A stretch of 64,000 nt of DNA from a virus: positions 20,462 through 84,461 of the IMG/VR virus record IMGVR_UViG_3300039210_000244. One strand, 5' to 3'. The notes under the pieces were generated by a model. That model searched no databases. It saw only the letters and a list, made by a program, of their open reading frames with translations, and was not told the origin of the DNA. The position numbers were made by a program, and so were the translations under genes. Positions 47,189 to 64,000 of the stretch are shown here, piece by piece (within the stretch, counting starts at the first letter, position 1; the number at the start of each line of letters is the position of its first letter).

Positions 47189-47244
47189 TTCAATTCGGGT
47201 TTCGGGTTAAACTGACATCTGAAGTAAAATAAAAGCCTCGTTAG

Positions 47245-47255: not shown

Positions 47256-47259
47256 AAAA

Positions 47260-47290
47260 AGGCGTGAGCCGAAAGATTCAGCCCACGCCT
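47260..47290 (-). terminator. Terminator closing the 47.3-49.4 kb unit
   Basis: AGGCGTG(G/A)GC 9-10-bp stem, followed on the minus strand by TTTTTAG, which runs into the promoter element. Confidence 0.8.
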
Positions 47291-47306
47291 GACGCTGCCG
47301 GGCCGT

Positions 47307-47579: not shown

Positions 47580-47583
47580 AGGT

Positions 47584-47802
47584 TCAGGCGTTGACGGTTG
47601 CGGTTGTTGAGAGGACCGGCGTGGGCCACTGGCGTAGCACTTTCCCGGCCTCAGCAGTGAGACGCCAGAGCTTCACTTCTTTGGCGCGTTTCCCCTCGGT
47701 TGCTCGGTCAAACGCACCGTTGGCTGCGCTGTGATCGCGTCCACGGTACGGCTCAAATTTCTCGCCGGCTTTCGTAATGGCAACGACCGAGAACTCAAAC
47801 AT
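47584..47802 (-). CDS. Small protein, unknown
   Basis: 72 residues (MFEFSVVAITKAGEKFEPYR), beta-rich. Overlaps the upstream gene by 8 bases (ATGTTTGA). Confidence 0.55.
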   Translation of the reverse strand: MFEFSVVAITKAGEKFEPYRGRDHSAANGAFDRATEGKRAKEVKLWRLTAEAGKVLRQWPTPVLSTTATVNA

Positions 47803-48193
47803 GGGAGTCCGAAGGTTGAGGTTCGGCGACCGGGGCCAGCGCCTCGGCTATGTCTGCCTTGGCGCTCGCCTTCAGACGTTCTACAGCCTGCAGAGCCGTA
47901 ACGATTTTCTCATTCTCAGTCTGCAGCGTCATCGTCACGAACTCCTCGGTCGTGCTGAGATAAAGCCGATTGAGGTTTCTGATCCGAAGGATGCCCTCGT
48001 GCGTGAACACGCGGCTGCGTTTGCCGTCGGCGCCCATGTGCCCGCCGGTGCCCCAGAAGATCGCTTCGTACGCCTCGGAGTAGGTGCACTGCTTGCCGGG
48101 TGACTCTTTGAGTTTGTACCGTGCAACGCCGTTGCAGGGCAGCTTGTAGATCCGACGCATGACCGCGTTCGAGATAGATTTTTCGTTCGACAT
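47795..48193 (-). CDS. Unknown protein with coiled-coil tail
   Basis: 132 residues from ATG at 48193 (MSNEKSISNAVMRRIYKLPC); the C-terminal half is helical. Hexamer leader GAACCCGAAACGAAA before the start. Confidence 0.6.
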   Translation of the reverse strand: MSNEKSISNAVMRRIYKLPCNGVARYKLKESPGKQCTYSEAYEAIFWGTGGHMGADGKRSRVFTHEGILRIRNLNRLYLSTTEEFVTMTLQTENEKIVTALQAVERLKASAKADIAEALAPVAEPQPSDSHV

Positions 48194-48222
48194 TTTCGTT
48201 TCGGGTTCGGGGTTCAACTGGC

Positions 48223-48807
48223 TCAGGCGGCGACCGGCTTTTTGAGCGGCCAACCAAATTCACGAAGCAATCTCACTTGATCCTTCGCTGTTCGCCGTAG
48301 CGGAGCCACATGCGCCAGCGCGTTGTGCATGCGCCAATAACAGACAGAGCGCGCTTGCTTCTCGATCGCTGGATCTGGCTTTTGATTATGGAGCCTCGGC
48401 GCCTTCATCCTCTCGCGCTCGTACAGGCGATGTCCCGGGCCTTTGCCGTCCATTTCGATCAGCCCGGCCCAGTCGGGGACTTCGTTCATGCGCACAAGAT
48501 CCGGCGGAGTGACAAAGAAAAACTGCACCGGCCCGCGCGTGCTCTTCTGATTGAGCAGGTCGTGCTTGTTCAGAAACACCGGCGGTGCTCCGTACGGTCG
48601 CGGCCACACCTGCTCGTATTTCTTCGCGTCGGCAAAAAAGTCGGCCCGGCTGATCTTTACCTCGAACTCACGGAAGTATCCGGCCTCTGTCAGTTCGTAT
48701 AGATCGCACTCCCACCAATCTTTCGGGGTGAAGTGAGGCAGCACGAAACTCCGGCGATAACGCTCGCGTATCAGGGCCTCCGTTATGTCCTGCGCGTTCA
48801 CGTTCAA
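48223..48807 (-). CDS. PD-(D/E)XK-type nuclease-like protein (MmcB-related)
   Basis: 194 residues. The core WWECDLYELTEAGYFREFEV then KISRADFFADAKK shows the conserved D....E-x-K pattern of MmcB-like nuclease folds (WECD ... EFEVK). The rest is helical with Arg-rich segments. Possible role in DNA degradation or repair. ATGA overlap with the membrane gene. Confidence 0.65.
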   Translation of the reverse strand: MNVNAQDITEALIRERYRRSFVLPHFTPKDWWECDLYELTEAGYFREFEVKISRADFFADAKKYEQVWPRPYGAPPVFLNKHDLLNQKSTRGPVQFFFVTPPDLVRMNEVPDWAGLIEMDGKGPGHRLYERERMKAPRLHNQKPDPAIEKQARSVCYWRMHNALAHVAPLRRTAKDQVRLLREFGWPLKKPVAA

Positions 48808-49013
48808 AACGTCTTAGCTTCCCTGAGAGCTTCTTTCCAGTCAGCCCACAGGAATGCTGCGCTTTCAAACAGAGAATAGCTCGTGAAGATCCAGCGGCAA
48901 TAAAACGCGACTGGTAGGAGCAGCAGCAACACCGTCAGGTACAGCAGTAGCGCGATCCGCACCGCGTACTCAGTGCCACGACCGACGACCTTGCCAAGAT
49001 CGTGCGGGTTCAC
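48804..49013 (-). CDS. Small membrane protein
   Basis: 69 residues with one long hydrophobic helix (VRIALLLYLTVLLLLLPVAF). Coupled to its neighbours by ATGA. Unknown. Confidence 0.6.
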   Translation of the reverse strand: MNPHDLGKVVGRGTEYAVRIALLLYLTVLLLLLPVAFYCRWIFTSYSLFESAAFLWADWKEALREAKTF

Positions 49014-49264
49014 TTCTGCACCTCATCCGGCTTTCGGACAGACAGCGCGACGGGTGGATGTCCGCTCATCAGAACGGAGAGCCAGATTCGGCCGGTGAAC
49101 AAAAGTCGGACGCGGTGCCAGAACGGAACCCTCCAACACGAGACCGTTTCACCGGTCGTTCTCCAACAAGGTAGATCCTCGCAAGAGCCATCCGCCTTCA
49201 GCGACGCGGGCGCTGTGAAGACGTAGTTAGATTGAGGGAACGGGATCGGGCGCACGTAGCTCAT
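49010..49264 (-). CDS. Conserved small phage protein
   Basis: 84 residues. CWRVPFWHRVRLLFTGRIWL followed by HPPVALSV matches a small protein family common in phages (c..p.w.RlrLl.tG.iwl). It overlaps the upstream gene's last 38 bases. Hexamer leader CCCGAACCGAAAGAAACGAA. Confidence 0.65.
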   Translation of the reverse strand: MSYVRPIPFPQSNYVFTAPASLKADGSCEDLPCWRTTGETVSCWRVPFWHRVRLLFTGRIWLSVLMSGHPPVALSVRKPDEVQK

Positions 49265-49442
49265 TTCGTTTCTTTCGGTTCGGGTGACGGACGCGGAATT
49301 CTGCGTGCAGTTTCAGCTGTTTGTCAATCGCTTCCTGCGGTATCCGCCGACCTTTTACGGTCAGCCCAGAGGCTTCGATGCCGGCGTCGAATAGACGCCA
49401 CAGCTCTTTTTTCAACTCACGGGACAGCTCGATGTGCTTCAT
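49227..49442 (-). CDS. Small helical basic protein
   Basis: 71 residues (MKHIELSRELKKELWRLFDA), helical, basic end (VRHPNRKKRNE). Start preceded by repeated hexamers (CTGAACCTGAACTGAACTG). Unknown. Confidence 0.55.
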   Translation of the reverse strand: MKHIELSRELKKELWRLFDAGIEASGLTVKGRRIPQEAIDKQLKLHAEFRVRHPNRKKRNELRAPDPVPSI

Positions 49443-49481
49443 CAGTTCAGTTCAGGTTCAGGGTTCAGGCGTGAATCGGAA

Positions 49482-50393
49482 TCACACGCTGTCAATTCTG
49501 GCGTCGATATTCTTCATCACCTGCGCAAGAAACGTGGCACCGCGCCGGTTCTGCATGGTCGCGGGGATCAGCTCCGCGGCCTCGGCGGCGAGCACCCGGC
49601 CCAACTTTGCCCGGTCGCTGCCGTTCAGCCCGGCGATCATATTCGCCGCAAGCATCACCTGAATTGCCACCTGTTTCGCCGTATCCACTTTCTTCTGGGC
49701 CGAGACTCCGGCTGCCTCGCAGGCGAGTTCAAAACTCTGCTGCTTCATCGAATCCAGGTAGCTGTAAAGGATGGCGCCCGCGCGCTTGTAGTCCTTATCC
49801 ACACAGCGCATCAGCAACGTTTCAACATGCTCGAAGGGCATCGATCCGATTGCCCGTTCCACCAGCCATTGCTGGAGCGAACCGCTAACAATCAGCTTCC
49901 AAATTTGCTCTGAAAGCCCGGCCATTTTCTGAAAAATACGGACACGGTTTACGCTTTCACCCAGCGCGGCGGCGGCGGCTTCATCGGTGTCGCCCAGCTT
50001 CTTCATCCGGACCGCGGCGTTTGCGGTTTCGCGCAGTGTCATCGACTGCCGCGCGTGGTTCTCGATCACCTGCGCTCTAAAGCGGCTCGCTTCGTCATCC
50101 CGGTTGAGCGTGACACGCGCCGGGATTGATTGGATGCCGGCGAGGCAGTGAGCCCGCCAGCGACACTCGCCCATGATGATTAGATATTTTCCCGGCTCGC
50201 TGGGATTCTTTCGGACGGTAATGGGTTGGAGCAGTCCCTCCGCTTTAATCGACTCGGCGAGTCCGTTTATGTATTCCGGAGTGAACTCTTTGCGGGGTTG
50301 GTCCGGATCAGGCGAAATCAGGCTTGTGGGAATAGCGAGTACGCTATGCGCGATCTTCGGTTTCAGTTCAGCAACGGGTTCGATAGCAATCAT
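49482..50393 (-). CDS. ParB/Spo0J-family protein
   Basis: 303 residues. N-terminal ParB domain: ISPDPDQPRKEFTPEYINGL, then GLLQPITVRK and the CTP/nucleotide-motif MGECRWRAHCLAG (about 75-87). A helix-turn-helix follows (RETANAAVRMKKLGDTDEAA, about 122-150). The C-terminal about 100 residues are helical. Known ParBs bind DNA at parS and act as CTP switches; here it may serve plasmid-prophage partition, gene regulation or replication. Promoter element 50449-50459 and leader upstream. Confidence 0.8.
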   Translation of the reverse strand: MIAIEPVAELKPKIAHSVLAIPTSLISPDPDQPRKEFTPEYINGLAESIKAEGLLQPITVRKNPSEPGKYLIIMGECRWRAHCLAGIQSIPARVTLNRDDEASRFRAQVIENHARQSMTLRETANAAVRMKKLGDTDEAAAAALGESVNRVRIFQKMAGLSEQIWKLIVSGSLQQWLVERAIGSMPFEHVETLLMRCVDKDYKRAGAILYSYLDSMKQQSFELACEAAGVSAQKKVDTAKQVAIQVMLAANMIAGLNGSDRAKLGRVLAAEAAELIPATMQNRRGATFLAQVMKNIDARIDSV

Positions 50394-50448
50394 GTTCTTT
50401 TCGGGTTCGGGTTTACTGACAAGAGAAGTGAAATAGAAAAACTAGTTC

Positions 50449-50459
50449 ATGTAAAGATG
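50449..50459 (-). promoter_or_regulatory. Putative phage promoter element (CATCTTTACAT)
   Basis: TnTTTACAT-family copy 56 bases upstream of the ParB start, about 50 bases beyond terminator 50508-50537. Confidence 0.5.
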
Positions 50460-50507
50460 ATAATGCGAATTTGACTTAAAAAATTCAAGCGGCCAGAACA
50501 TGAAAAA

Positions 50508-50537
50508 GCCCGGCGGGGACATGACTACCCGCCGGGC
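50508..50537 (-). terminator. Terminator of the large clamp gene
   Basis: GCCCGGCGGG/CCCGCCGGGC type 10-bp stem followed by TTTTTC on the minus strand. Confidence 0.85.
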
Positions 50538-50549
50538 CACCGAACCAAA

Positions 50550-52061
50550 TTACGCGAGACGCACCGGCATCAAGACCGCCAGTTTATCGCCAGCCTCAAC
50601 GAGCACCGCGGAAACGTCGTCTTTGACGCTCATCGTGATCCGGTCATCAGTCCACGAATTCACCACGTCGAGCAGGAAGATCGGGTTGAGCGCAGTCACA
50701 AGCGGCTCCGCCAAATCAGCGCCGCCGGCCACCTTGATCTCTTCTTTCCCGGTTCCGATGCTCACGTTGAGCACGTTGATCCTCAGCAGTCCTGCTGTGA
50801 TCGTGAGCTTCACCGAATTGGCTTTCTCACTGTTCAGCACCATCATTCGTCCGAGCGTGTTGAGCAGCTCGACCCGATCGATCACGAGCGTCGTCGCCCG
50901 GTCCTTCGGAATAACCTGCGCGTAGTTCGGGTAATTGCCGGCGATCAGCCGAAAGACACCGCGGTAGGTGTGCCCATTGGCATCCGATGCGATGCTTAGC
51001 CGGTTGCCTCCATCGTTGAGCGAGGCCGTCACCGTTGCGTCGAGCGGTACGCTGGCGCGGATTGCTTCGGCTGCCAGCGTGGGAATGATCAGCACGCCAG
51101 GCCGGGAAAGGATCTTGTCAGCGCAGAGTGGAACGCGGACGAGGCGCCGGCCATCGGTGGCCACGACATCATCGCGGGTGTTGTCCTTCGAAAGCGCAAC
51201 CGCGATCCCTAATAGGATATACCGCGTTTCATCGGCGCTCGCGCACTTGATGGTCTCGGTCACGACCCGGGCGAGGTTCTTGCCCGTGATTTCCATCACT
51301 GGTTTCTCACCAAGCGCCGGCATCGGTGGCCATTCCGTCGATGAAATCCCCATGATTTCCGTCCGGTTCTCAATGTCTGAGATCTTCAGCATCCCGCTCG
51401 TGACCTCGGCCATCATGAAGTCGGACGAGCAGCGCGCGACGAACTTCGAGAGGACCGTGAACGGAACCGCCAACGAGTGTTCACCGGTTGTTTCGGCCGG
51501 GACTTCGGTCGCAATGAAGCTATCCAGATTCGTTCCCTCCACTTTCAGCCGACCGTTGCCGAACGTGATCAGAGCGCAGTTCAAAATTGGCATCGTCGCC
51601 TTGGCGCCCGTGACCTTCGCGACGCACTGGAGCTGGCGGATGAATACCTTGCGGCTCACCTTGAACATCCCGAGCGAACTCGTCTTCGAGAGCGGTGTTT
51701 CGGCCTCGACCGGGATCTCGGTCTGTTCGTGGGCCGGCTCGAATGCGACAACGTTGGTCGGTTCGGGCACCGGGTCGTTAATGAAACCTTCTACGACTGG
51801 CGCATCTGACTCGGGTTCGTCGAGCACAGCCACAACAGACGGAGCGGCGCGCGTCGCGGACGTTTCGGCCGCGGTCGGTGCGATGACCTCCACTTCGGCG
51901 ACGGGCGCCGCATTTGGCACGGGCTGGAGCTTCATGATCTGATCGATCAGCTTCGTGCTTTTCGTCGCGTAGGGCGATTTGATGCCGGCAACGAGAGCGG
52001 CTGAGATCAGGTCTTTGCGGGAGAGAGCAACGAGGCTCTCGGATGTATGGACGTTTTTCAT
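50550..52061 (-). CDS. Sliding clamp (DnaN-like) with N-terminal SAP/Rho-N-like domain
   Basis: 503 residues. The last about 370 match the beta clamp: FKVSRKVFIRQLQCVAKVTG start, VVATDGRRLVRVPLC, FRLIAGNYPNYAQVIPK and C-terminal LAVLMPVRLA (compare DnaN end MPMRL). Residues 1-50 (SLVALSRKDLISAALVAGIK and SPYATKSTKLIDQIMK) look like a Rho-N/SAP helix-extended-helix DNA/RNA-binding domain, joined by an Ala/Pro/Glu-rich linker (about 50-130). Clamps tether DNA polymerases and other factors to DNA. Leader and promoter precede it, terminator follows. Confidence 0.85.
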   Translation of the reverse strand: MKNVHTSESLVALSRKDLISAALVAGIKSPYATKSTKLIDQIMKLQPVPNAAPVAEVEVIAPTAAETSATRAAPSVVAVLDEPESDAPVVEGFINDPVPEPTNVVAFEPAHEQTEIPVEAETPLSKTSSLGMFKVSRKVFIRQLQCVAKVTGAKATMPILNCALITFGNGRLKVEGTNLDSFIATEVPAETTGEHSLAVPFTVLSKFVARCSSDFMMAEVTSGMLKISDIENRTEIMGISSTEWPPMPALGEKPVMEITGKNLARVVTETIKCASADETRYILLGIAVALSKDNTRDDVVATDGRRLVRVPLCADKILSRPGVLIIPTLAAEAIRASVPLDATVTASLNDGGNRLSIASDANGHTYRGVFRLIAGNYPNYAQVIPKDRATTLVIDRVELLNTLGRMMVLNSEKANSVKLTITAGLLRINVLNVSIGTGKEEIKVAGGADLAEPLVTALNPIFLLDVVNSWTDDRITMSVKDDVSAVLVEAGDKLAVLMPVRLA

Positions 52062-52131
52062 GTTCTATTCGGGTTCGGGTTTTGTTTCGGGTACTAACTG
52101 ACTGAACAGAGTAGAATAAAAAGACCGATAC

Positions 52132-52142
52132 TTGTAAATATA
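52132..52142 (-). promoter_or_regulatory. Putative phage promoter element (TATATTTACAA)
   Basis: Most divergent TnTTTACAT-family copy, 71 bases upstream of the clamp start and next to terminator 52149-52178. Confidence 0.45.
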
Positions 52143-52148
52143 AAAAAC

Positions 52149-52178
52149 AAAAGGACGAAGATTTTTCTTCGTCCTTTT
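52149..52178 (-). terminator. Terminator of the KH-protein unit
   Basis: Perfect 12-bp stem AAAAGGACGAAG/CTTCGTCCTTTT followed by GTTTTTT on the minus strand, merging with the promoter element. Confidence 0.9.
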
Positions 52179-52212
52179 AATGCCGGATAACCGGGATAAA
52201 CTGGCGTTCAGG

Positions 52213-52815
52213 TCACGCTTTGTTCGGCTGGAGAACGACGCGGATAATCCGACCGTGATTCTTTCCAATGCCGTCGAATATGTTCTTGATCGCGCCTATG
52301 ATCGCACCATCGGTGCCGTAGTCGAATTGTATTTCTGGACCGTACACCTGCGGATAATCCTCCGCCTTCACTTTCACGACGAAGATCGTCGTCGTACCGA
52401 TCTCCGATGAATCGATGTCCATTGAGTCTGGATTGAGCAGGAACGGTGAGATCACCCGGCGCAACAACGGCTGCACCTTATCGAATTTCTGCGTATCAAC
52501 TCGGCTGTAAACGAAGCCTTTTACCGGCGCCACGTTGGGCGGCGGGCCTTTGTCATCCACAATAATATGGGACTCGCGATCGATCAGTTTGCAAAGGCTG
52601 GCCGCAATACCTTCGAGCGCCTTGTAGTGCTTCCCCCTCGTGCCAATAACTCGGCGTACGTCTTCCTGTTCGGTGCGGATTCTGAAAGCGACAAGCGGCC
52701 CGTGCTCGGAGCTTTCGACCTTCACGTTTTCGGGATGCGTGACGATGCTCATGACAAGCGCGGTTAAGATTGAGCGGATTTCAATAATTTCATTAGTCTC
52801 GGGTGCTGTGTTCAT
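52213..52815 (-). CDS. KH-domain (KhpA-like) RNA-binding protein
   Basis: 200 residues from ATG at 52815. The segment DVRRVIGTRGKHYKALEGIA (about 52-72) has the KH signature GxxG in the right helix-loop-helix setting, followed by SLCKLIDRES as in KhpA. The second half contains a degenerate repeat (FDYGTDGAIIGAIKNIFDGI) suggesting a duplicated KH fold. KhpA binds RNA and stability factors in bacteria; phage versions are uncommon. Leader AACCTGAACCGAAAAC before the start. Confidence 0.7.
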   Translation of the reverse strand: MNTAPETNEIIEIRSILTALVMSIVTHPENVKVESSEHGPLVAFRIRTEQEDVRRVIGTRGKHYKALEGIAASLCKLIDRESHIIVDDKGPPPNVAPVKGFVYSRVDTQKFDKVQPLLRRVISPFLLNPDSMDIDSSEIGTTTIFVVKVKAEDYPQVYGPEIQFDYGTDGAIIGAIKNIFDGIGKNHGRIIRVVLQPNKA

Positions 52816-52873
52816 CTGGTTGGGTTGTTTTCGGTTCAGGTTTCGTGAGGAAAAAACCCAGTAAACCAAAGCA

Positions 52874-52901
52874 GCCGGCCTCATTCGGTGGAGAGGCCGG
52901 C
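52874..52901 (-). terminator. Weak terminator-like hairpin
   Basis: GCCGGCCTC/GAGGCCGGC 9-bp stem between the 52915 and 52815 genes; the T-run is about 20 bases further on (TTTTTT), so activity is uncertain. Confidence 0.45.
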
Positions 52902-52914
52902 CACCTAATGATTG

Positions 52915-53409
52915 TTACTCAGGCTTCAGGACGAACTCCGTTTGTCGGAGATCCTCCTGCGTTTGGCCGGAGACTGAGTGTTTTTCGGAATAAGAGGTTG
53001 TGACCTTCGTATCCATCATCTGGAGGTTCGAGTGGTCGATCACGATTGAGACTGCCAGAGAAACCTTCGCGGCTTTCTCGCTTTCCTTGCCCGCTTTTTG
53101 CGCGGTCTTGCAGATCCCCTTCCACATGTCGGCGAGCTGCACACCGACCTGTCGGCACACGAAGTCCGCGGTCGCCATGTAGTTCTTAACCTCGGCGTCG
53201 TTGCAGCCGGTGACGGACGCTCCGCACACCTGCACATTGGGGAGAACTTCGCCGTTCAGCCGCGGAGGCGGTGGAACGATTTCATTCTCGGCGTCGCCGC
53301 CTTCTTGCGCGGATGCTTCGAGAGGAACAACTGGCGCCATGCCGTCGGTTTCCGGGGCTTCCGAGTTGGTCTGTACCTCGTCGGCTGGATTTTGTTTACG
53401 CTTAGCCAT
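52915..53409 (-). CDS. Unknown replication-region protein
   Basis: 164 residues. N-terminal about 55 residues are disordered (Glu/Pro/Ala-rich); the rest is helical then strands (VSLAVSIVIDHSNLQMMDTK). Two Cys-containing spots (VCGASVTGCND). Leader CCCGAATAGAACCCGAA. No family recognised. Confidence 0.6.
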   Translation of the reverse strand: MAKRKQNPADEVQTNSEAPETDGMAPVVPLEASAQEGGDAENEIVPPPPRLNGEVLPNVQVCGASVTGCNDAEVKNYMATADFVCRQVGVQLADMWKGICKTAQKAGKESEKAAKVSLAVSIVIDHSNLQMMDTKVTTSYSEKHSVSGQTQEDLRQTEFVLKPE

Positions 53410-53434
53410 TTTATTTCGGGTTCTATTCGGGTTT

Positions 53435-55225
53435 CTAGTTTGTCAGGAATTTCCTGACTAAGTTCTTCAACAGAGCTGACTGTGTAAGCTCTTCGCCGTC
53501 CGCTGTCGAGGCTGTAATCTTCGCCTTGTCCGAAACAAGCTCCCAAAGATCGTCATCGATAGTGTTTGGCGCTAAGAAGTAATACGCATTCACGCAGTCC
53601 TTTTGTCCAATGCGATGCACGCGATCGACCACCTGCTGATGCTTTGAGTGTGTCCACATCAACTCGGCAATTCCGATGTGCGAAGCTGCGGTCAAGGTGA
53701 GTCCGAAACCAGCCGCCAGCGTTGATCCGATGAACAACCGGCACCGCTCGTCTTTCATGAATTTGTCCTGCTCGCGCTGCACGTCGTCGCAGCCGCCGAG
53801 CACGGTGGCCGGATGCCACTGAGCGAGACCGCGCACGAGCGCATCGAGCACGGCTTTATGGTGAGCATAGATCACGAATTTTTCGCCGCCTTCGAGAAAC
53901 GTGTCGATCCAGTCGATGATCCAGTTGACCTTGCCGATACCCGCGCACTGTCGGAGCGCGTTGAGTTTTATAAGATGCTTGGCATCCATCCGCGTTTGGC
54001 CGACCAAACCGCCAGCCTCCGCCATCATCCACGCGACAATATCTTTTTCGATCCGCCGATACTCGACCTCGTTCGATAGCTCTGCCTCGTACACCGCTTC
54101 GATTTTGTCGGGTAGCTCCTTGAGCACATCTTTCTTGCGGCGCCGAATCAGCACCGTACGCGAAAGCAGACTGTGGAGTTCGAGCGTGTTGGTCGCGCCG
54201 GTGAGATCAAAGCCGAACTTCGTCCGTTTACCGCCGCAGTACCGCGTGGCGTAATGGTGCCATCCTCCCATCTTAGTCATCACATCCAGGAACGTGAGCG
54301 GCGCGATGAGCTCGGCGGGCCGGCCGTTCTCAATTGGTGTGCCTGATAGTACAAACCGAACTGGCGCTTCAGACAGCTGCGCGATCGCCGTGGCCGCCAT
54401 GCACCTAATCGAGTCACCGTGTTTGATCCAGTGACCTTCGTCGCACGTGACCGATTTCGGGCGCACGAAATCCGGGAAGAAAAACTTGCGCGTTCCAATC
54501 TCGTGGGCAGCGGCTTTGCGAACTTTCGCCTTTGGACTCGCGAGCTTGTAGTGAACGAGTTTGTGGATCTCTGAGTAACCCAAAATCGTGATCTCTGCAA
54601 AATCGTTGGCCAGTAGCGAAGCGCTCCGCTTCGGCAGCCACTTTCGGCACTCGTGAAGCCAGTTCTGTTTCAGCTTCACCGGGCAAATGATCAACGCCGG
54701 GTAAGCCTGCTTCAGTTCGATGGCGGCGAGAGCCTGAAGGCTTTTTCCGGTTCCCATGTCGTCGCCGTTGTAGGCGCGTTCCATCGTCGCCATGAATTTG
54801 ACGCCGGATTTCTGGTAGTTTTTCAGCGACTTCTCCAGCTCTGGATTGCCGGGAATATGCAGGTCGATCGCTTCCTCGGTCGCGGACTGCGCGAGCGCGT
54901 TGACCGCGGCTGATTTCTTGAGCTCAGCCGACAGCTTTTCCCGCGCGTCCTTCGTTGGCGTGATGCCCCAAGCAATGAACTGAGTGAGCTGCTTCACCGC
55001 GTCGGGCGCCACCGCGATCGTCCATGCAAACCCGTGCGTGGACGGCTTGCGCTGCTTCAACGCCCGCACGAGCTCGACGAACATCAAATACTCCTGCCGG
55101 TGCGTCTTCAGGAAACCATGGTCAAACGAGAGTGTGAATTCACCACACAAAAACATCAGCACTCCCTTGCGGACGTTCTGCGCGACGGCGCCTTCGAGCG
55201 GCGGTTTCTCCAGCGTCGTGCTCAT
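53435..55225 (-). CDS. SNF2-family helicase
   Basis: 596 residues from ATG at 55225. SNF2 core: Walker A-like NGDDMGTGKSLQALAAIEL (about 155-173), TCDEGHWIKHGDS (DEAx box variant DEGH), VRFVLSGTPIENGRPAEL, KFVIYAHHKAVLDALVRG and ATPase arginine motif QQVVDRVHRIGQKD. Remodelling/translocase activity on double-stranded DNA is expected; in phages it may aid replication or recombination. It is coupled by ATGA to the DUF1064 nuclease gene. Confidence 0.9.
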   Translation of the reverse strand: MSTTLEKPPLEGAVAQNVRKGVLMFLCGEFTLSFDHGFLKTHRQEYLMFVELVRALKQRKPSTHGFAWTIAVAPDAVKQLTQFIAWGITPTKDAREKLSAELKKSAAVNALAQSATEEAIDLHIPGNPELEKSLKNYQKSGVKFMATMERAYNGDDMGTGKSLQALAAIELKQAYPALIICPVKLKQNWLHECRKWLPKRSASLLANDFAEITILGYSEIHKLVHYKLASPKAKVRKAAAHEIGTRKFFFPDFVRPKSVTCDEGHWIKHGDSIRCMAATAIAQLSEAPVRFVLSGTPIENGRPAELIAPLTFLDVMTKMGGWHHYATRYCGGKRTKFGFDLTGATNTLELHSLLSRTVLIRRRKKDVLKELPDKIEAVYEAELSNEVEYRRIEKDIVAWMMAEAGGLVGQTRMDAKHLIKLNALRQCAGIGKVNWIIDWIDTFLEGGEKFVIYAHHKAVLDALVRGLAQWHPATVLGGCDDVQREQDKFMKDERCRLFIGSTLAAGFGLTLTAASHIGIAELMWTHSKHQQVVDRVHRIGQKDCVNAYYFLAPNTIDDDLWELVSDKAKITASTADGEELTQSALLKNLVRKFLTN

Positions 55226-55695
55226 GACAAAACGTCCTGCTTGTACCATTGGCCGGATACGCGCCACACGAGGCGGAATTTTGCCCACGTGTGCTGCGTT
55301 GCTGCTATTTTCAAAAACTCGAATCCTCCGCGAAAAACTTTCGGCCCCTTCACTTCGATGAAGAGTTTTTCTTCGGGCAAAAAGAAATCAGGTTTATACC
55401 AGTCGCCGTTTGCAAGTTTGAGCCGAATCCCTTGCGGAATTGCCAGCTTGCCTGGGAAGAGCACCCGAAGCTGATCTGAATAGGCCAGCTCCAGTTTGTT
55501 CATCAGCGGTTTTTTCGACTGGCGCATCCGTGGCTTCACGCCATTTGTTCCAGCCTCCAGCTCAGTCGCTTCTTCGAGCGGGTAGGCGTGCGTGACCGAC
55601 ACGCTGAGCGGCTTCCTGTCGGCACGCGCGGCTTCGATCTGCGCGTGGAAGCGCGGATGAATCTTCGCCATGACATCTGTCATTTTCATTCCCAT
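55222..55695 (-). CDS. DUF1064-like restriction-fold nuclease
   Basis: 157 residues. MNKLELAYSDQLRVLF opening, then NGDWYKPDFFLPEEKLFIEV with KG, the D...E-x-K core of the DUF1064/VRR-like nuclease family (PDF, EVKG). Usually found in phage recombination clusters and used in DNA processing. TAATG overlap with the upstream gene. Functionally probably paired with the SNF2 helicase. Confidence 0.75.
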   Translation of the reverse strand: MGMKMTDVMAKIHPRFHAQIEAARADRKPLSVSVTHAYPLEEATELEAGTNGVKPRMRQSKKPLMNKLELAYSDQLRVLFPGKLAIPQGIRLKLANGDWYKPDFFLPEEKLFIEVKGPKVFRGGFEFLKIAATQHTWAKFRLVWRVSGQWYKQDVLS

Positions 55696-56141
55696 TAGAG
55701 AAACGAGGTTTGGAGCTCACGACGCACCGGCGTCTGGCGGAATTTCTTCTGGGCGAAGGACAGACTGCGCAGCTCCAGCAATTCGCGGAGCTGCTTAACC
55801 TCGAACTTCAACGCAGCGTTCTGCGCCACGAGCACCGATCGATCGGTCTTGTCCTCGCGCACGGCCTGCGCTGACTGCCCGTTGAGCCGGTATGAATATA
55901 GACCGTTCCCATCATAGCGGCGTTCGACGTGCCAGCTGCCAAACCGCACCTTGCGGAGATCCCGCAAACGTGCGCTCACGCTGGCCGGCGGAGCGCCCAC
56001 GAGAACGGCGATCGTCTGCAGCGTGCGCCATTCGCCATCCTGCATGAGATCGCGGACAGCGGCGAATTGGAGCGTGAGCCTGGATTCGTCGCGCTCCGGC
56101 TCGTAGGTGGCTCCGTCAAATTGTACTGCTTGAGTGCTCAT
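55695..56141 (-). CDS. Winged-helix regulator-like protein
   Basis: 148 residues from ATG at 56141. The segment VRDLMQDGEWRTLQTIAVLV then ASVSARLRDLRKVRFGSWHV and ERR (about 30-75) has the winged-helix layout; the C-terminal about 60 residues are a leucine-rich coiled coil (AALKFEVKQLRELLELRSLS). Likely DNA-binding dimer. Hexamer leader ACCCGAACCCGAACTGAA. Confidence 0.65.
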   Translation of the reverse strand: MSTQAVQFDGATYEPERDESRLTLQFAAVRDLMQDGEWRTLQTIAVLVGAPPASVSARLRDLRKVRFGSWHVERRYDGNGLYSYRLNGQSAQAVREDKTDRSVLVAQNAALKFEVKQLRELLELRSLSFAQKKFRQTPVRRELQTSFL

Positions 56142-56167
56142 TTCAGTTCGGGTTCGGGTTGCTAATT

Positions 56168-56389
56168 TCAGTCTGAGTAGAGAACTGAGTCTCCGTCGGC
56201 ATCGCAGTGCTCGGGTGGCCATCCGGCTTTGCGGATCGTCATCATACGCATTGTGCGCGAATAGATGCGGAAAAGAAAATTCAGCAGCTCCAGCAGCGCC
56301 GATTGGGCAATGGCGAGCGCGAGAAAAGCCAGTATGCCGAGGAAAATAGCCATCCTCGGATTGGCAGACGTGTATTCAAAAACGTTCAT
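56168..56389 (-). CDS. Small membrane protein
   Basis: 73 residues with one hydrophobic N-terminal region (MAIFLGILAFLALAIAQSAL) and a basic middle. Starts near a run with no hexamer leader. Unknown. Confidence 0.55.
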   Translation of the reverse strand: MNVFEYTSANPRMAIFLGILAFLALAIAQSALLELLNFLFRIYSRTMRMMTIRKAGWPPEHCDADGDSVLYSD

Positions 56390-56410
56390 ATAATTCGATG
56401 GTTGTTACGA

Positions 56411-56896
56411 TCACTTGGACAAAATTTCTTCGGTTCGCAGTGCACGCACTTCTTCACTCGACACGTCGATGACCCAGCCGATGCGGCGGCTTTCGCTGAT
56501 CTTCGTTTTCGCAAGATCGTGGTGAGCCCGGCACGCGGTCCGCATGTACTTCCGGCAGTAGAGTAGGGGGCCATTGCGCCCGGCGGCGTGGTGGAGATCC
56601 ATCACGTCGCCCTTCAGGATCGAGCGCGTGCATCCCCCCGGGTACTGGCAGCCGGGATGCTCGGCGAAGTGAATAATCTTCTCGCAGTAGTATCGACGAT
56701 CATCCGCCGCCTTCGTTGGCGATCGCTGACGGATACGCTTCAGCGGCTTCTTTCCAAGGATCACCCGAGCGAACGAATGCTTCAATACGCAGAGCTCGCG
56801 GCGTGCCTTGCGCTCGGCGTTCACCTTTGGAATCGGCTTGCGCGGTTTCGGTCCGGCGGGCTTCCGAGAGAGCCAGTCTGTGAACGGTTGGCTCAT
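56411..56896 (-). CDS. HNH endonuclease-like protein
   Basis: 161 residues from ATG at 56896. GGCTRSILKGDVMDLHHAAG, RNGPLLYCRKY and ACRAHHDLAKTK give Cys, HH and terminal HH in the HNH arrangement; the N-terminal half is very basic (KPRKPIPKVNAERKARRELC). Like NinG/other recombination-region HNH proteins. Coupled to the second clamp by ATGA. Confidence 0.7.
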   Translation of the reverse strand: MSQPFTDWLSRKPAGPKPRKPIPKVNAERKARRELCVLKHSFARVILGKKPLKRIRQRSPTKAADDRRYYCEKIIHFAEHPGCQYPGGCTRSILKGDVMDLHHAAGRNGPLLYCRKYMRTACRAHHDLAKTKISESRRIGWVIDVSSEEVRALRTEEILSK

Positions 56897-57996
56897 TTGA
56901 GTCTCACCGGCATCACCATCGTTTGTAGGTCGCCGCAGTTGACGGCCAAAGGCGACATCTCCGGTTTGACCTCTTTGATGTTGAGCACCGTCGTCTCGTC
57001 CGTGCCGGCGTTCACCGCATCGAGCAGGAAACGATAATTCACCGCCACTTTGCCTGACAAGTTGTGAGGATTCGCGCAATCGAGCTCGTCCTGCGACGTA
57101 TCTTCGTCACCGGCCGTCAGGAGGATTTTTTGCTCTTTGAATTCGAGACAGATGGCGCTGAATTTTTCGGTCGTTGCCAGGGCGACAAGTTTGACGGCCT
57201 TGCGTAGTCCCTCGCGATCAACCATCACGCCCTTCGTTTCGTATTGAGCGAGCACACCGCGCCAATTCGGATAATTGCCGGCCACGACTTTCGTCTGGAA
57301 AACGATTTCGCCGTCAGGTCGGTCGATCACGAATTCAACCTGCTTGTCGTCAAGCGTGACCTGCACTTTCCCGGTTCCTTCGAGCAGGCGGACCAACTTG
57401 TCCACAGCGGTATCGGGAATGATGATCGAGAGCTGACCGTCACTCGCTTCGTTCGACGTGTTGACGTGCATTCGCCGGCCGTCCGTCGCGACGAACGTGA
57501 TCCCCGTTGGCGTTTTCGCGACCAACACGGATTTAATGATGTAGCGTTGCTCCTGATCGGACGCCGAGGCTGCAACCGAGTTCAGGCGGTCGGCCAAATC
57601 CTGCTGCTTCAGCTCCATCATTACACCCGACGCGATCGGCGGGCGAATAGGGAACTCCGCGCCGGACATCCCCATGAATCGATAATCCGACGGGCCGCAC
57701 TTCATCGAAATGGCAAATCGGTCGGTGACTGTGATCGTGATCTCGCCTTCCGCCAGCGCGCCGACGATGCCGGTGAATCGGCTGCCGGGCAGGCAAACGC
57801 TGAAATCCTTTTCGATCACCGCCGGCGTGCTCGTGCTGATGCACATATCGAGATTGGTCGATGTGAGGAATACGCGCTGAACGGCCTTGCGGGCTTCGAT
57901 CATGACACACGCCAGGACCGGCAGTGTGGCTTTGGGCTGGGCGACGCGCGCACCGACAGACAGAGCGGCGAGGAATTTTTCTTTCGTGATTTTCAT
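56893..57996 (-). CDS. dnaN: Second sliding clamp (DnaN-like)
   Basis: 367 residues, the normal length of a bacterial beta clamp. Conserved features: LAALSVGARVAQPKATLPVL, FVATDGRRMHVNTSNEAS, FQTKVVAGNYPNWRGVLAQ and the terminal MVMPVRLK. It differs clearly from the 503-residue clamp and lacks the N-terminal domain. ATGA overlap with both neighbours (HNH below, SWIM above). Two clamps and no polymerase in view suggest host Pol III recruitment (inference). Confidence 0.85.
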   Translation of the reverse strand: MKITKEKFLAALSVGARVAQPKATLPVLACVMIEARKAVQRVFLTSTNLDMCISTSTPAVIEKDFSVCLPGSRFTGIVGALAEGEITITVTDRFAISMKCGPSDYRFMGMSGAEFPIRPPIASGVMMELKQQDLADRLNSVAASASDQEQRYIIKSVLVAKTPTGITFVATDGRRMHVNTSNEASDGQLSIIIPDTAVDKLVRLLEGTGKVQVTLDDKQVEFVIDRPDGEIVFQTKVVAGNYPNWRGVLAQYETKGVMVDREGLRKAVKLVALATTEKFSAICLEFKEQKILLTAGDEDTSQDELDCANPHNLSGKVAVNYRFLLDAVNAGTDETTVLNIKEVKPEMSPLAVNCGDLQTMVMPVRLK

Positions 57997-58322
57997 TTCG
58001 GGTTCGGGTTTTCTGACTGCTTGAAGAGAGCGACTAAGTTTTTCTTAAACCGGTAACAGAGGATCTTTTCCGCCCTCCTGATATGCTTGCACTTCGAGCG
58101 TTCGCTATGCTTTTTGATGACTCGATCCCGCAGCAATGGACGTATCGTGAAGTCGAAATTCTGGCAGCTACAAGCGCCGCTACAGTCGTTCTCGTCGAGG
58201 TGAACGGTGTGCGAGATTTCCGGATCATCCGTGCTCTGAAAATGCCATGTGAGCCAGTCGTCAGAGACGAATTTGAGGACACCGCACGCACGAGCGTCAT
58301 CCTGTCGGACTTTGTTTGACAT
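57993..58322 (-). CDS. SWIM-type zinc-finger protein
   Basis: 109 residues. CSGACSCQNFDFTIRPLLRD followed by SKCKHIRRAEKIL gives the CxC...CxH SWIM arrangement. SWIM fingers occur in DNA-binding and recombination proteins. Element 58375-58385 and hexamer leader ACCCGAACCCGAACTGAA upstream; ATGA coupling to the clamp downstream. Confidence 0.7.
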   Translation of the reverse strand: MSNKVRQDDARACGVLKFVSDDWLTWHFQSTDDPEISHTVHLDENDCSGACSCQNFDFTIRPLLRDRVIKKHSERSKCKHIRRAEKILCYRFKKNLVALFKQSENPNPK

Positions 58323-58374
58323 CGATTCATTCAGTTCGGGTTCGGGTACGAGGAGTGTTTGGAACGCGCCTCAA

Positions 58375-58385
58375 ATGTAAAGATA
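58375..58385 (-). promoter_or_regulatory. Putative phage promoter element (TATCTTTACAT)
   Basis: TnTTTACAT-family copy between the primase-helicase stop and the SWIM gene, 53 bases before the start at 58322. Confidence 0.5.
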
Positions 58386-58393
58386 TAATCGGC

Positions 58394-60331
58394 TCAGAAG
58401 GGTTGATCCTCGTCGATTTCTTCAGCTGGCGCAGGCGGTGCTGACGGCGCGTCTGTCTTCGCATCGAGAAACGAAAAACCGGTGTCGGTATAATGGCCGA
58501 AGAATTGTTTTCCTCCCGAAACGTACCATAGATCGATCGTCGGCTCGGCGCCGTCGTCGTTGCGCTGCTTGCCGACGATCATGAGCGCGTCCGGCTTTGC
58601 CCGTTTCTTCTGAGTGATCAGCGCCGGATCGGTCTTCATCTTCTCCATCATCTCGATTTCCTTCTCCTTCTTTTTATTCCGCCATACTGTGATGACATTA
58701 TGCGCCTCATCGGTGAGCTGACCGCTGCCCTTCACGTCCAGCTTGTTCGCCTGCTCCTCTTCGTTCTTCAGCTTGCGCGGGTGCGCGACAACGAACAGGT
58801 GCACGTCGCTCCCGTCCACGAACTCTGAAAAACCACCGATAACTTCGGCCTGCGCGTCCAAGTCGTCAGAGCTAATTCCCATCTTCATCCACGAATCGAT
58901 GATGAAAAAGCGGCAGCCGTGCCGGCGGTACGCATAGCGGAAAGTCGTCAGCACGTCTTTCCAGTTCGCGCGGCCAACGCGCTCGTAAAACCAGATGCCC
59001 TTCTCGATCGCGTCCATCGCAGCCTCCGCTTTCGGCCGGTCTGGCGATTTTTCGCCAGTCTGCTGTCGGATGAAAAATTCGATCGTCTGTTCCGGGTGCA
59101 CCTCTAACGAGGCGACGCATGACGAGTAACCGAGCTTCGCCAGATAGTTTGTAATGAAGGACAGACAGACCGTTTTGCCGCTGCCGTTCATCCCCGTAAT
59201 CACCGTCCACTCGTGCCAGCGCAGATGAAACGGATAGTTGCCAAACGGAAGCGGAATGCCGCGCTTCGTGTTCGCGTCCGCGCTGAACATGCGAGCCAGC
59301 ACGGCATCGCGGTACTCGCCCGCGTTGCGCAGTGCCGCTGGGTCCAGGGTCTTCGCGGCGTTGAACGCGATGGTCAGTTCAGCCTCGCGGCAGGCCTTCA
59401 ATAGTTCGTTAGCGTCCTTCAGCGGGAGAGCGATGACGAAACAAATCTCCCGACCCAGCCGCTTGACGATGGAGGCGCACGCCTGCTTCCCCGGCTCGTC
59501 CATGTCCATCGACAAATACACGCGCTCGAAGCGGGAAATAAATTCCCAGTCTTCCCCGATCCACTCGTCATTCGGATCTTTGCCGTCCTTGCCTTCCCAC
59601 TTCGCGCCGAAGGGAACAGAGCAAACACACAAACCCGGGATCTTCATCGACGCCCACGTCAGCGCGTCTGGCTCGCCTTCGCATATCAACAGATAGCGAT
59701 CCGCCGGTTTGACCGTGTGTTTTCCGAACAGAACTTTGGGCGTGTCCTTACTCGTCCATGTCTTCTTTTTTCCATCCTCCGTTCGCTCCAGAGCAAGGAA
59801 CTTGAGCATCTGCGCAGCGTGCGGAGCGTTCTCGTGGAGATACGGGAAGACGATCGCAGTTCCGTCCTCGGTCATTGCGATCTTGTAGGCTTCGACTATC
59901 TCGCGCGGGATCTTACGATCTACCGTCAGGTAGAACTCGGCAGCGTTTGCGATCCACGTCACACCGCGTTTGTCCGGTTTCGAGTAAGCACGCGGTTCTC
60001 TCTCTTTCTTCTGGAACTTGGCCCCGCCGTCCATGTTGACGCCGTGCGCCACCAGCCATTCCTTCGCCTCTCGGAGCGCGTCCTGAAAAGGAACGCCCCG
60101 CGCCTGAACCCAGAGCTCCAGCATGTTCGAGCCGCCGTCGGTTCCGCCAAAGTCTTTGAAGATCCCGGCCTTGTCGCCGTGGCATGAGACGCTGAGAGAG
60201 TGGCCTCCGACGCCGGATGCGAGCCGGCCACCGACCCACTCACCTTTCACCATCATGCCGTCGGGGAGTAGCAGTTTACAGACATCCTCGGCGCGGTCCG
60301 CCAAGGCTTTTTTGATTTCGGGTAATTCCAT
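58394..60331 (-). CDS. Primase-helicase (Twinkle/T7 gp4-like)
   Basis: 645 residues. The Toprim-associated N-terminal part has GHSLSVSCHGDKAGIFKDFG; TOPRIM motif LLICEGEPDALTWASM (about 215-235) and VYLSMDMDEPGKQA (about 280); RecA-like helicase with Walker A VITGMNGSGKTVCLSFITNY (about 385) and Walker B RFFIIDSWMKMGISSDD, plus HLFVVAHPRKLKNEEEQANK. The C-terminus is acidic (EEIDEDQPF), as in phage helicases that bind polymerases. Expected to prime and unwind the replication fork. A canonical zinc-binding domain is not evident. Confidence 0.9.
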   Translation of the reverse strand: MELPEIKKALADRAEDVCKLLLPDGMMVKGEWVGGRLASGVGGHSLSVSCHGDKAGIFKDFGGTDGGSNMLELWVQARGVPFQDALREAKEWLVAHGVNMDGGAKFQKKEREPRAYSKPDKRGVTWIANAAEFYLTVDRKIPREIVEAYKIAMTEDGTAIVFPYLHENAPHAAQMLKFLALERTEDGKKKTWTSKDTPKVLFGKHTVKPADRYLLICEGEPDALTWASMKIPGLCVCSVPFGAKWEGKDGKDPNDEWIGEDWEFISRFERVYLSMDMDEPGKQACASIVKRLGREICFVIALPLKDANELLKACREAELTIAFNAAKTLDPAALRNAGEYRDAVLARMFSADANTKRGIPLPFGNYPFHLRWHEWTVITGMNGSGKTVCLSFITNYLAKLGYSSCVASLEVHPEQTIEFFIRQQTGEKSPDRPKAEAAMDAIEKGIWFYERVGRANWKDVLTTFRYAYRRHGCRFFIIDSWMKMGISSDDLDAQAEVIGGFSEFVDGSDVHLFVVAHPRKLKNEEEQANKLDVKGSGQLTDEAHNVITVWRNKKKEKEIEMMEKMKTDPALITQKKRAKPDALMIVGKQRNDDGAEPTIDLWYVSGGKQFFGHYTDTGFSFLDAKTDAPSAPPAPAEEIDEDQPF

Positions 60332-60350
60332 TTCAGTTCGGGTTCGGGTT

Positions 60351-61267: not shown

Positions 61268-61561
61268 TCAAAGCGTTTGGACGTGATCGCGGCTAACGCG
61301 AGCAATGACCGATTTTCCTGACTTTCCGAGGATCGTGACCTCGTACTCCGGGACGTGACCGCGCGCGAGAAAACCTAGCCACTTCTGGGCAACTATCTCG
61401 CCTTTCTCTTCAGTCGTTTTCCCGCCGGCTCTCCGGCAGTCAAAGCGGACGACTGAGCCAACGTACTTGCGCGCCATTGGCTCAGCGCCGGGGACAATCA
61501 CGTCCGGTAAATCTGACCTGCCGTCCCGGGTATTCGGGTTCGTTTCGAGTTTCGGATTCAT
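61268..61561 (-). CDS. Small protein, first gene of the leftward block
   Basis: 97 residues from ATG at 61561 (MNPKLETNPNTRDGRSDLPD). Beta-rich core GSVVRFDCRRAGGKTTEEKG, EYEVTILGKSGKSVIARVSR. The hexamer leader ACCCGAACCCGAACTGAA immediately precedes the start, which excludes the long antisense frame running through the integrase. Unknown function. Confidence 0.65.
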   Translation of the reverse strand: MNPKLETNPNTRDGRSDLPDVIVPGAEPMARKYVGSVVRFDCRRAGGKTTEEKGEIVAQKWLGFLARGHVPEYEVTILGKSGKSVIARVSRDHVQTL

Positions 61562-61861
61562 TTCAGTTCGGGTTCGGGTATCTAACCTGTTCAGTTCGGG
61601 ATCGTTTCGGGTATCTATCAGGGACGGCAGGAAGGGATTGACGCGGCCGCGTGAGGCACGCAATTTGCGCGGTTTTAGTGCGCGGGACTGTCTCGGACGG
61701 CCCGAAATAGGACCGCTCACGACAACCAAATGACATCCAGTGCAAAACGCCGGGCTACGATAGAACCCCTCAGCGTCCACCACTTTGACCACGCCGCGAG
61801 CGTGGTTTTTGCTTTTCATAGGTAACGATGCCACTCGACACAAGCCGGCGCAATCGGCTGC
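61562..61861. other. Divergent control region between leftward genes and integrase
   Basis: About 300 bases without a credible gene. It holds the hexamer leader of 61561, a second leader-like CCCGAAACGATCCCGAAC (around 61590-61609), the plus-strand terminator at 61788-61810 and a group of repeated CGACAWCCAA-like motifs (61720-61740; two more inside the integrase 5' end at 61872-61893). Confidence 0.5.
61788..61810 (+). terminator. Terminator upstream of the integrase on the plus strand
   Basis: ACCACGC/GCGTGGT 7-bp stem, CGCGA loop, followed by TTTTTGCTTTT. It would stop plus-strand transcripts from further left about 52 bases before the integrase start. Confidence 0.75.
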
Positions 61862-63154
61862 ATGCATCGGATGGCATCCAAACGACATCCAAAAGAACAA
61901 CCGAATGCCAACCGAGTGCCCACTCGGGGCGTTTTGGAGATCGAGAGACCCGGCCGTCCGAATCCATACGGCGTTCAATGGCCGGAACAAGAGTTCGATC
62001 AGGTCACGCACAAGAGCCGGCGCGTGCGCAAGACTCTGTTCTTCCCGACGACTGCTTCGCGTGACGAGAAAGCTCGGGAGCTGCGCGACGCGCGCCGAAG
62101 CCGCATGATGGTCGCCAGCGTTCCGCGAGACGAGATCGCCAACTACCGCGCGTTCAAGACCGCCATCGGCGAGACGCCTTGGCAGAACGTCATCGCCGGC
62201 TGGCGGGCGCATCTCATGTCCGCCGGCCTCGTTCCATGCGACATGACCGTCGAGGCGGCTGGTACGGAGTATCTGGCGAAGATGAAAGAGCTCTTGGATA
62301 AAAAGAGGATCAGCGCCGACACCGAGCGACACAAGCGCCACAAGATTCGCCTCTTTGTTGAGGAGTTCGGGGATCTGACTCTCGACCGCGTGACCACCGC
62401 CATGATCGAGGACTGGATCGATGAATTCGACGAGATCCAGAGCGATTACACCTTCGACGGGTACGCGAAGCACATCCGCGCGTTCTTCGGCTACTTCGTC
62501 AAGGACAAGAAGGTTCTCCGCGATAACCCGGGCAGTGGATTGAAACATCGAAGCGACGGAATCGGCGAGGTGAAGATCATCAGCGTCGCACAAACCGCTC
62601 GCCTGTTTCACGTCTGTCTCACCGAACCCAAATTCAAGCCGATCGTCGGACGGCTGGCGATGGAAGCCTTCATCGGCCTGCGCTTCGGCTCTGGCTGCCG
62701 ATTGGAGAGGGTTGACATCAATCGGGAGGACAAGGGCGTCACCCTGCCGAAGCACAAGCTCAAGACCAAACGGCGGCATTACATCGACGGCCTGCCCGAA
62801 TGCCTCTGGAGCTGGATCGATGTCACTCCCGACGAGTGCTGGGAACTCACACCCCGGCAATATATGGGGCTGAAGAGCGACATCTTCACCAAGGCCAACG
62901 TCCCGCATCCCCACAATTGTCTGCGGCATGGCTTCGCAACTTACTACACCGCGGCGTTCAAGAATCCCGGCGCGACGGCAACGATTCTGTGCCACCGGGA
63001 TCAACAAGAGCTGTGGGATCATTATAACGGGAGAGCGACGGAGGCTGATGGGAAATTGTACCAAGAAATCACGCCGACAACGGCAGAGCGGATTTTAGTT
63101 GGCTACGTTCCAGCACGTGCTGCGCAAGGCGGTCGGCTGCAATCTCCGGCGTGA
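61862..63154 (+). CDS. int: Tyrosine recombinase (phage integrase)
   Basis: 430 residues from ATG at 61862 (or 61874). SAM-like core-binding domain about 115-215 and catalytic domain after it: Arg in FIGLRFGSG (about 280), Lys in HKLKTKRR, HxxR in HPHNCLRHGFATYY (about 355) and the second H with Tyr in CHRDQQELWDHYNG. It integrates and excises the prophage. Divergent from all leftward genes and convergent with the 63069 gene, with which its 3' end overlaps by 86 bases. Confidence 0.9.
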   Translation: MHRMASKRHPKEQPNANRVPTRGVLEIERPGRPNPYGVQWPEQEFDQVTHKSRRVRKTLFFPTTASRDEKARELRDARRSRMMVASVPRDEIANYRAFKTAIGETPWQNVIAGWRAHLMSAGLVPCDMTVEAAGTEYLAKMKELLDKKRISADTERHKRHKIRLFVEEFGDLTLDRVTTAMIEDWIDEFDEIQSDYTFDGYAKHIRAFFGYFVKDKKVLRDNPGSGLKHRSDGIGEVKIISVAQTARLFHVCLTEPKFKPIVGRLAMEAFIGLRFGSGCRLERVDINREDKGVTLPKHKLKTKRRHYIDGLPECLWSWIDVTPDECWELTPRQYMGLKSDIFTKANVPHPHNCLRHGFATYYTAAFKNPGATATILCHRDQQELWDHYNGRATEADGKLYQEITPTTAERILVGYVPARAAQGGRLQSPA

Positions 63155-63742: not shown

Positions 63743-64000
63743 ATGGATACCAAACGAACACCTTTCTGCATAATCGAGGATCATGTTGGCGTCGCCGAAG
63801 CGATCAGCTTTGCGATCGAAGCGACTCATCACATGCGGACCGCAGGCAGCTTCAACTCGCTGAAAGCCGCCAGAGCCGGTCTCGTCAGATGCAATCCGCG
63901 CGTAGTCGTCGTGGACTGGAGGATCACCGATGGCACTGGCCCTACAATCGTTGCTGAGGTTAAAGCTGCACTCCCTGAGTGCCGATGGCTTCTCTACACC
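63743..64000 (+). CDS. Host response-regulator receiver protein, truncated by window edge
   Basis: At least 86 residues, C-terminus beyond the window. Receiver-domain features: the acidic pair in FCIIEDHVGVAEAIS, the phospho-acceptor Asp in VVVVDWRITDGTGPTIV, and the conserved Thr in CRWLLYT. No phage leader precedes the ATG; on this evidence it is the first host gene. Confidence 0.7.
   Translation, partial: MDTKRTPFCIIEDHVGVAEAISFAIEATHHMRTAGSFNSLKAARAGLVRCNPRVVVVDWRITDGTGPTIVAEVKAALPECRWLLYT

Follow-up and report, generated by a model that had tools for sequence, protein, structure and literature searches.

The closest analogue of the arrangement described here is the SAS/ESAS system of the Cluster K mycobacteriophages. 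In Cluster K, a start-associated repeat is found on 13-19 genes, a subset of which also carries a SigA-like promoter with a spacing of 17-18 bp (PMC3203893, PMC11373665), and similar motifs occur in Cluster EF (PMC7302621). The virus examined here (G000) is not a member of Cluster K, and its sequences are unrelated to those of that group. Common to both are a short asymmetric repeat that lies directly before many start codons in a single orientation (PMC3203893, PMC11373665, PMC7302621), and a conserved promoter upstream of a subset of the repeats, which in G000 comprises 12 of the 33 genes preceded by the repeat (the leader). On the other hand, the Cluster K SAS, GGGATAGGAGCCC, has a Shine-Dalgarno core, whereas the G000 leader, ACCCGAACCCGAA, has none and consists of a variable number of ACCYGAA units. 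The ESAS also includes a 15-17 bp imperfect inverted repeat, while no inverted repeat is shared by the copies in G000 or its relative G008.

Other described systems resemble one half of the arrangement or the other. The L5-type stoperators of Cluster A are likewise asymmetric, numerous, intergenic and oriented with transcription in short gaps (PMC9283540), but the G000 repeat is fixed to start codons and no repressor was identified. With host sigma70/SigA promoters, G000 shares a hexamer (TTTACA) near TTGACA, a 17-bp spacer and, at most sites, T at -10 positions 1 and 6; it differs in that its -10 element rarely has A at position 2 (A2) and in an unusual degree of conservation in the upstream and -35 flanks. 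In the middle (MotA) promoters of T4, a phage-specific box at about -35/-30 replaces the standard -35 element, and the -10 element is a good TATAAT. G000 also has its box at the -35 side, but its -10 is poor and no MotA was identified. The explanation that is probably correct for G000, with appreciable room for doubt, is a genome-wide cassette of two parts, a sigma70-type promoter and a leader that acts independently of Shine-Dalgarno pairing.

The window referred to throughout is a stretch of 64,000 nucleotides, corresponding to record positions 20462-84461 of the whole virus record (G000; 84,461 bp, GC 0.578). An identical 98-bp repeat is present at both record ends (window 63902-63999 and L003:1-98) and contig L055 spans the joined ends, so the record probably represents an entire genome, in circular or circularly permuted form. 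All of the evidence is computational, with gene starts taken from a simple caller of our own. The minus strand carries 109 of the 119 called genes and is treated as the gene strand. G000 is a tailed phage according to its gene content, which includes a portal, an intein-bearing terminase large subunit, a DnaB-like primase-helicase, an SNF2 helicase, two DNA clamps, ParB-like proteins and integrases; given the integrases, it looks temperate. The intein splicing domain occupies residues 197-356 of the terminase (window 39789-41843, minus strand), and the two clamp-like proteins (PolIII beta/processivity factor; 50550-52061 and 56893-57996, minus strand) are different from each other within one phage. 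An integrase-like gene on the plus strand (61916-63154) overlaps a minus-strand ORF (61268-63064); the plus frame is the real gene, because its product is 65% identical in G008. The phage has one more Phage_integrase gene, at L003:15292-16263 (minus strand).

Across the 84-kb record, the minus strand has 14 copies of the pattern T[CA]TTTAC[AT] and the plus strand has none. All 14 copies are in noncoding DNA, which makes up 16% of the record, and the equal rate of occurrence within genes that the original prediction had named as evidence against itself was not seen. The repeat is real and chance is untenable, because no copy is coding and none is on the other strand. The exact core TNTTTACAT is found seven times in the window (1889, 33324, 39675, 45179, 47245, 50449 and 58375, all minus), compared with 0.40 +/- 0.62 in shuffles. 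The original prediction counted nine copies of the core; seven are exact, while those at 32190 and 52132 are variants (TATCTTTACAC and TATATTTACAA), so that nine overstates the exact core and understates the pattern genome-wide. Four further box copies lie outside the window, at record positions about 3653, 7510, 13987 and 19492. The predicted siting upstream of genes and on their strand stands: all nine sites are outside genes, with the start codon approximately 49-77 nt past the first T of TTTAC. The copies in the window are as follows.

58375-58385, minus strand: -35 box TATCTTTACAT, with -10 window ACACTC (58353-58358); the ORF downstream starts at about 58330/58322 and was skipped by our gene caller.
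52132-52142, minus strand: -35 box TATATTTACAA, with -10-like TCTACT (52110-52115) and GTCAG 36 nt past TTTAC.
50449-50459, minus strand: -35 box CATCTTTACAT, with -10-like TTCACT (50427-50432) and GTCAG 35 nt downstream; it serves gene 49482-50393 (ParB-like; leader at 50400-50412).
47245-47255, minus strand: -35 box AGTCTTTACAT, with -10-like TTTACT; a terminator-like hairpin (47260-47290) precedes the box.
45179-45189, minus strand: -35 box CGTCTTTACAT, with weak -10 window AACATC.
39675-39685, minus strand: -35 box TATCTTTACAT, with -10-like TCTCGT; leader ACCCGAATTGAACCCGAACTGATT before the ATG of 38354-39604.
33324-33334, minus strand: -35 box CCTCTTTACAT, with -10-like TCTTCT and GTCAG 38 nt downstream.
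32190-32200, minus strand: -35 box variant TATCTTTACAC, with -10-like TCTTCT; downstream gene 31603-32136.
1889-1899, minus strand: -35 box TATATTTACAT, with -10-like TAGTTT and GTCAG 35 nt downstream.
3964-3974, minus strand: doubtful copy AATCTTTACTT, with the standard leader absent downstream.

The repeat probably serves as the -35 box in a promoter of which the phage uses at least 13 copies. The hexamer is TTTACA at 11 of 13 sites and TTTACT at the other two, TTTACA matching TTGACA at 5 of 6 positions. In a spacing scan anchored on TTTAC, with the -10-like hexamer scored on T1, A2 and T6, the best spacing in G000 was 17 bp, and none of 2000 shuffles did as well, a significance inflated by apparent duplicates among the 13 promoters. 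The same 17-bp optimum was obtained separately in two distant relatives, G009 and G010 (0 of 2000 shuffles each), whose boxes are TTGAC/TTGCT. In G008, the best spacing was 16 bp, which is not significant, since 14% of shuffles did equally well (n=7). The 17-bp geometry supports both the promoter-like character and the likeness of TTTACA to a -35 box that had been noted earlier. The earlier remark that no simple TTGACA/TATAAT pair is matched also holds: a generic promoter scanner detected none of the boxes in window 44000-60000, because the -10 element is poor. Its consensus is T...cT in G000, with T1 and T6 at most sites and A2 at few, and.A..cT in the relatives. Sigma70 normally needs A at -10 position 2, and an activator may thus be required by the promoters of G000.

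Sigma70-dependent transcription is expected to start 6-8 nt past the -10 element. In most copies having the sequence GTCAG, it lies where a start 7 nt past the -10 is expected, and in G000 and G008 the distances from an exact CTTTAC to GTCAG group at 34-36 and 38 nt. GTCAG-like sequence is also found at leader genes that have no box (4 of 21 in G000 and 8 of 25 in G008), so GTCAG may partly be a leader feature instead of a start site. Several boxes are preceded by terminator-like hairpins. In the proposed mechanism, the main sigma70-type RNA polymerase of the host would recognize [T/C]NTCTTTAC[A/T] as a -35 box, together with the degenerate -10 located 17 bp past it, and transcription would begin approximately 35 nt past TTTAC, in many cases at GTCAG. 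The 5' part of such mRNAs would then be little more than the leader, and operon-internal genes would have the leader alone. In one promoter copy outside the window (-969 to -1034 in window numbering; L003:19427-19492), TTCGGGT stands upstream of the leader ACCCGAA, and the two could pair as a hairpin.

The original prediction had also allowed for a phage-encoded factor as the reader of the element. Neither Sigma70 region 2 nor region 4 was found in four phages (G000 and three relatives) by a search whose positive controls gave a signal, and a sigma factor of the phage's own thus has no support; the Pfam family listing covered 25 of 54 families. No T7-type RNA polymerase was seen, in a search whose positive control likewise gave no signal. 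Since no sigma factor was found, the reader of the box is likely a host enzyme, the simplest being the main holoenzyme, perhaps helped or blocked by a phage regulator.

This promoter is only one half of a two-part cassette, whose larger repeat, ACCCGAACCCGAA, the original prediction had overlooked. The record contains 16 exact 13-mers of this leader, every one on the gene strand; the opposite strand has no copy, and a reversed control occurs nowhere. It is positioned downstream of the boxes and directly before the ATG, and contains a variable number of ACCYGAA units (classically ACCCGAACCCGAA), often followed by a GAA that abuts the ATG. Variant units include CCCGAA, ACCTGAA, CCTGAA and ACGAA. 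Exact copies in the window, with and without a promoter, include the following.

50400-50412, minus strand: leader ACCCGAACCCGAA, promoter-associated, 6 nt before the ATG.
52068-52080, minus strand: leader ACCCGAACCCGAA, promoter-associated.
58335-58347, minus strand: leader ACCCGAACCCGAA, promoter-associated.
45137-45149, minus strand: leader ACCCGAACCCGAA, promoter-associated, abutting the ATG of 44699-45136.
33271-33283, minus strand: leader ACCCGAACCCGAA, promoter-associated.
32137-32149, minus strand: leader ACCCGAACCCGAA, promoter-associated, abutting the ATG.
60337-60349, minus strand: leader ACCCGAACCCGAA, promoter-less, before the DnaB-like primase-helicase gene 58394-60331.
57997-58009, minus strand: leader ACCCGAACCCGAA, box-less, abutting the ATG of the clamp-like gene 56893-57996.
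56147-56159, minus strand: leader ACCCGAACCCGAA, promoter-less, before gene 55695-56141.
31042-31054, minus strand: leader ACCCGAACCCGAA, promoter-less, before gene 30694-31035.

In G000, the leader is found at 33 of 64 starts with an upstream gap of at least 10 nt, versus 1 of 37 with a gap below 10 nt. It is independent of the promoter, because 21 of the 33 leader genes in G000 and 25 of 30 in G008 have no box.

G008 (IMGVR_UViG_3300031548_000001, 95 kb) has many proteins in common with G000, at identities of about 60% overall and up to about 65%. It carries both parts of the cassette, mostly as CCTCTTTACT/ATTAA plus leader, with 15 exact 13-mers. Where the upstream gap is 10 nt or more, the leader stands at 30 of 67 starts, versus 3 of 44 where it is shorter, and 23 of its 33 leader genes have GAA immediately before the start codon. 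The box downstream of DnaB and the box after the gene of a KH protein occupy equal positions in the two phages, and the box before 31603-32136 is kept at the G008 ortholog even though that gene lies elsewhere in G008. The box core is common to G000 and G008 by descent. A Tad4-like (type I Thoeris inhibitor) match (E 1.2e-29) was noted in one member of the G000/G008 protein alignment A6. The more distant G009 and G010, with portals 44 and 42% identical to that of G000, are leaderless relatives, in which the leader is present at 1 of 98 and 1 of 130 starts, respectively. They have repeated promoters of their own, TTGC(T/A)nAACGAAA and TTGACnACGAATC. In G010 (L063-L067, IMGVR_UViG_3300042560_001229) there are 18 promoters of the form TTGACnACGAATC, about ten of which have a palindrome, TTTGCAAC[AT]GTTGCAAA, just upstream that is likely an operator. 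The ATG is 37 nt past the box in most G010 copies, which suggests that its mRNAs are leaderless. Matches to the composite of promoter and leader in the further viral contigs L007, L008, L010, L013, L038 and L040 were isolated, lacked the leader pattern and were set aside as chance.

Shine-Dalgarno-like motifs occur at background frequency in G000 (0.13 vs 0.12), and background is also the level in its three relatives and one Akkermansia phage. With the leader, ribosomes can probably initiate in the absence of a Shine-Dalgarno signal. The mean predicted folding energy from -35 to +25 in G000 is -3.9 kcal/mol at leader starts, -10.4 at other starts and -15.2 in random windows; the corresponding values in G008 are -3.0, -10.7 and -14.6. 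Weak structure around the start has been reported for non-SD genes, and is said to favor translation of mRNAs that lack the signal (PMC5397173). The weak folding of leader genes may come simply from the A/C-rich composition of the leader. As a Shine-Dalgarno-independent initiation signal, the leader would keep the surroundings of the ATG single-stranded, and it may also be recognized by a ribosomal or phage-encoded RNA-binding protein. Such a binding partner is suspected because the exact repetition of 13 bases exceeds what openness alone would need.

An unproven candidate for this partner is encoded in the window.

52213-52815, minus strand: putative RNA-binding protein with two KH domains (PF13083, KhpA/KhpB family).

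The 200-aa protein matches PF13083 at 47 bits (cut-off 32.1) and is 45% identical in G008. AlphaFold predicts two alpha-beta-beta-alpha-alpha-beta units (type-II KH folds), from an alignment of only two sequences; the best of the five models (range 57.9-81.4) has a mean pLDDT of 81. The first KH domain has a GXXG loop, GTRG (residues 58-61; GAKG in G008), and the loop of the second is altered. With KhpA/KhpB (EloR/Jag) and the KH1-KH2 domains of NusA it shares a KH match over the Pfam cut-off and two predicted type-II folds; unlike them, it is a single 200-aa chain of two KH units with no other domain. A possible lead is that NusA KH domains bind GAACUCAA-like boxC RNA, which is similar to GAACCCGAA. 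A structure search with the model gave no significant match in the PDB, the KH proteins NusA, S3 and KhpB being among the weak ones, and one significant match among viral models, to an uncharacterized phage protein. The protein was not found in G009, G010 or G011, tblastn gave no match among 50,697 phage records, and no relatives were seen beyond G008 and fragments of the G000 phage itself. The co-occurrence, in that both leader phages have the KH protein and two leaderless relatives do not, is suggestive but does not amount to evidence of function. A tentative and rather unlikely idea is that the phage has a code of its own in place of Shine-Dalgarno pairing, in which this protein, bound to the tandem ACCCGAA units of an mRNA leader, would selectively recruit ribosomes to the start codons of the phage or would switch those starts.

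Other readings of each half were weighed. The conserved box and its flank could be the site of a phage activator or repressor that overlaps the -35 region, as MotA boxes at -30 and repressor operators do, on top of weak host elements. Conservation is indeed stronger and longer on the -35 side than at the -10, the conserved block in G009 and G010 spans the -35 and reaches into the spacer, and the upstream palindrome is found at many promoters of G010. Yet the boxes of G000 or G008 have no inverted repeat in common, no regulator was identified and the 17-bp geometry already suits sigma70, so this reading is improbable, if the strongest of the alternatives. The Bacteroidota -7 consensus is TAnnTTTG, about 7 nt before the start. 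Were the box an element of this -10/-7 type, transcription would start about 10 nt downstream; TATCTTTAC resembles the consensus and the region is AT-rich, but its first two bases vary (G008 has mostly CC(TC)TTTAC), the last base is A and not G, and the consensus has no TTTG-type upstream element. Nor would it account for the TTTAC-GTCAG spacing or for a -10 at 17 bp. This very improbable reading was dropped, as the TA is not kept in G008.

For the leader, the ACCCGAA repeats could instead be DNA sites for an elongation-blocking repressor, as the L5 stoperators are. Their asymmetry, orientation with transcription, placement in short intergenic gaps and copy number would agree with this, as would a temperate-looking phage with integrases. 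Their tight register to the start codon, with GAA often abutting the ATG, the differing unit numbers and variants (CCTGAA, ACGAA), and their occupation of the Shine-Dalgarno place in unfolded start regions make it unlikely; the Cluster K authors separated the SAS from stoperators by the same start-codon argument (PMC3203893). It is equally unlikely that the leader is nothing more than the A/C-rich sequence usual around start codons in a host poor in Shine-Dalgarno signals. The related phages and the Akkermansia phage also lack Shine-Dalgarno motifs above background, and SD-scarce Verrucomicrobia are documented (PMC10783764), but composition falls far short of explaining a 13-bp word with 16 exact copies, and other SD-less relatives do not have the leader. 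Moreover, the composite pattern gave only 13 scattered single matches, in contigs of unrelated organisms among 84,980 species genomes, which were put down to chance.

As to the host, the portal of G000 had no relative in a protein search of genome contigs. The integrase had no match among plasmids, and its only phage match (INPHARED) was to Akkermansia phage Chantilly, at 21% identity. Together with the documented SD-scarce Verrucomicrobia, this match makes a Verrucomicrobiota host a plausible lead only. G000 adds another, unrelated phage lineage with the puzzling design of a promoter and a start-associated sequence, the function of which is still called unclear in Cluster K. The design in G000 is not explicable by Shine-Dalgarno pairing, and it isolates the possible role of a start-associated repeat beyond that pairing, with the two-KH protein as a concrete candidate binder. 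Promoter models are also gained for the phages of an SD-poor host group, possibly the Verrucomicrobiota.
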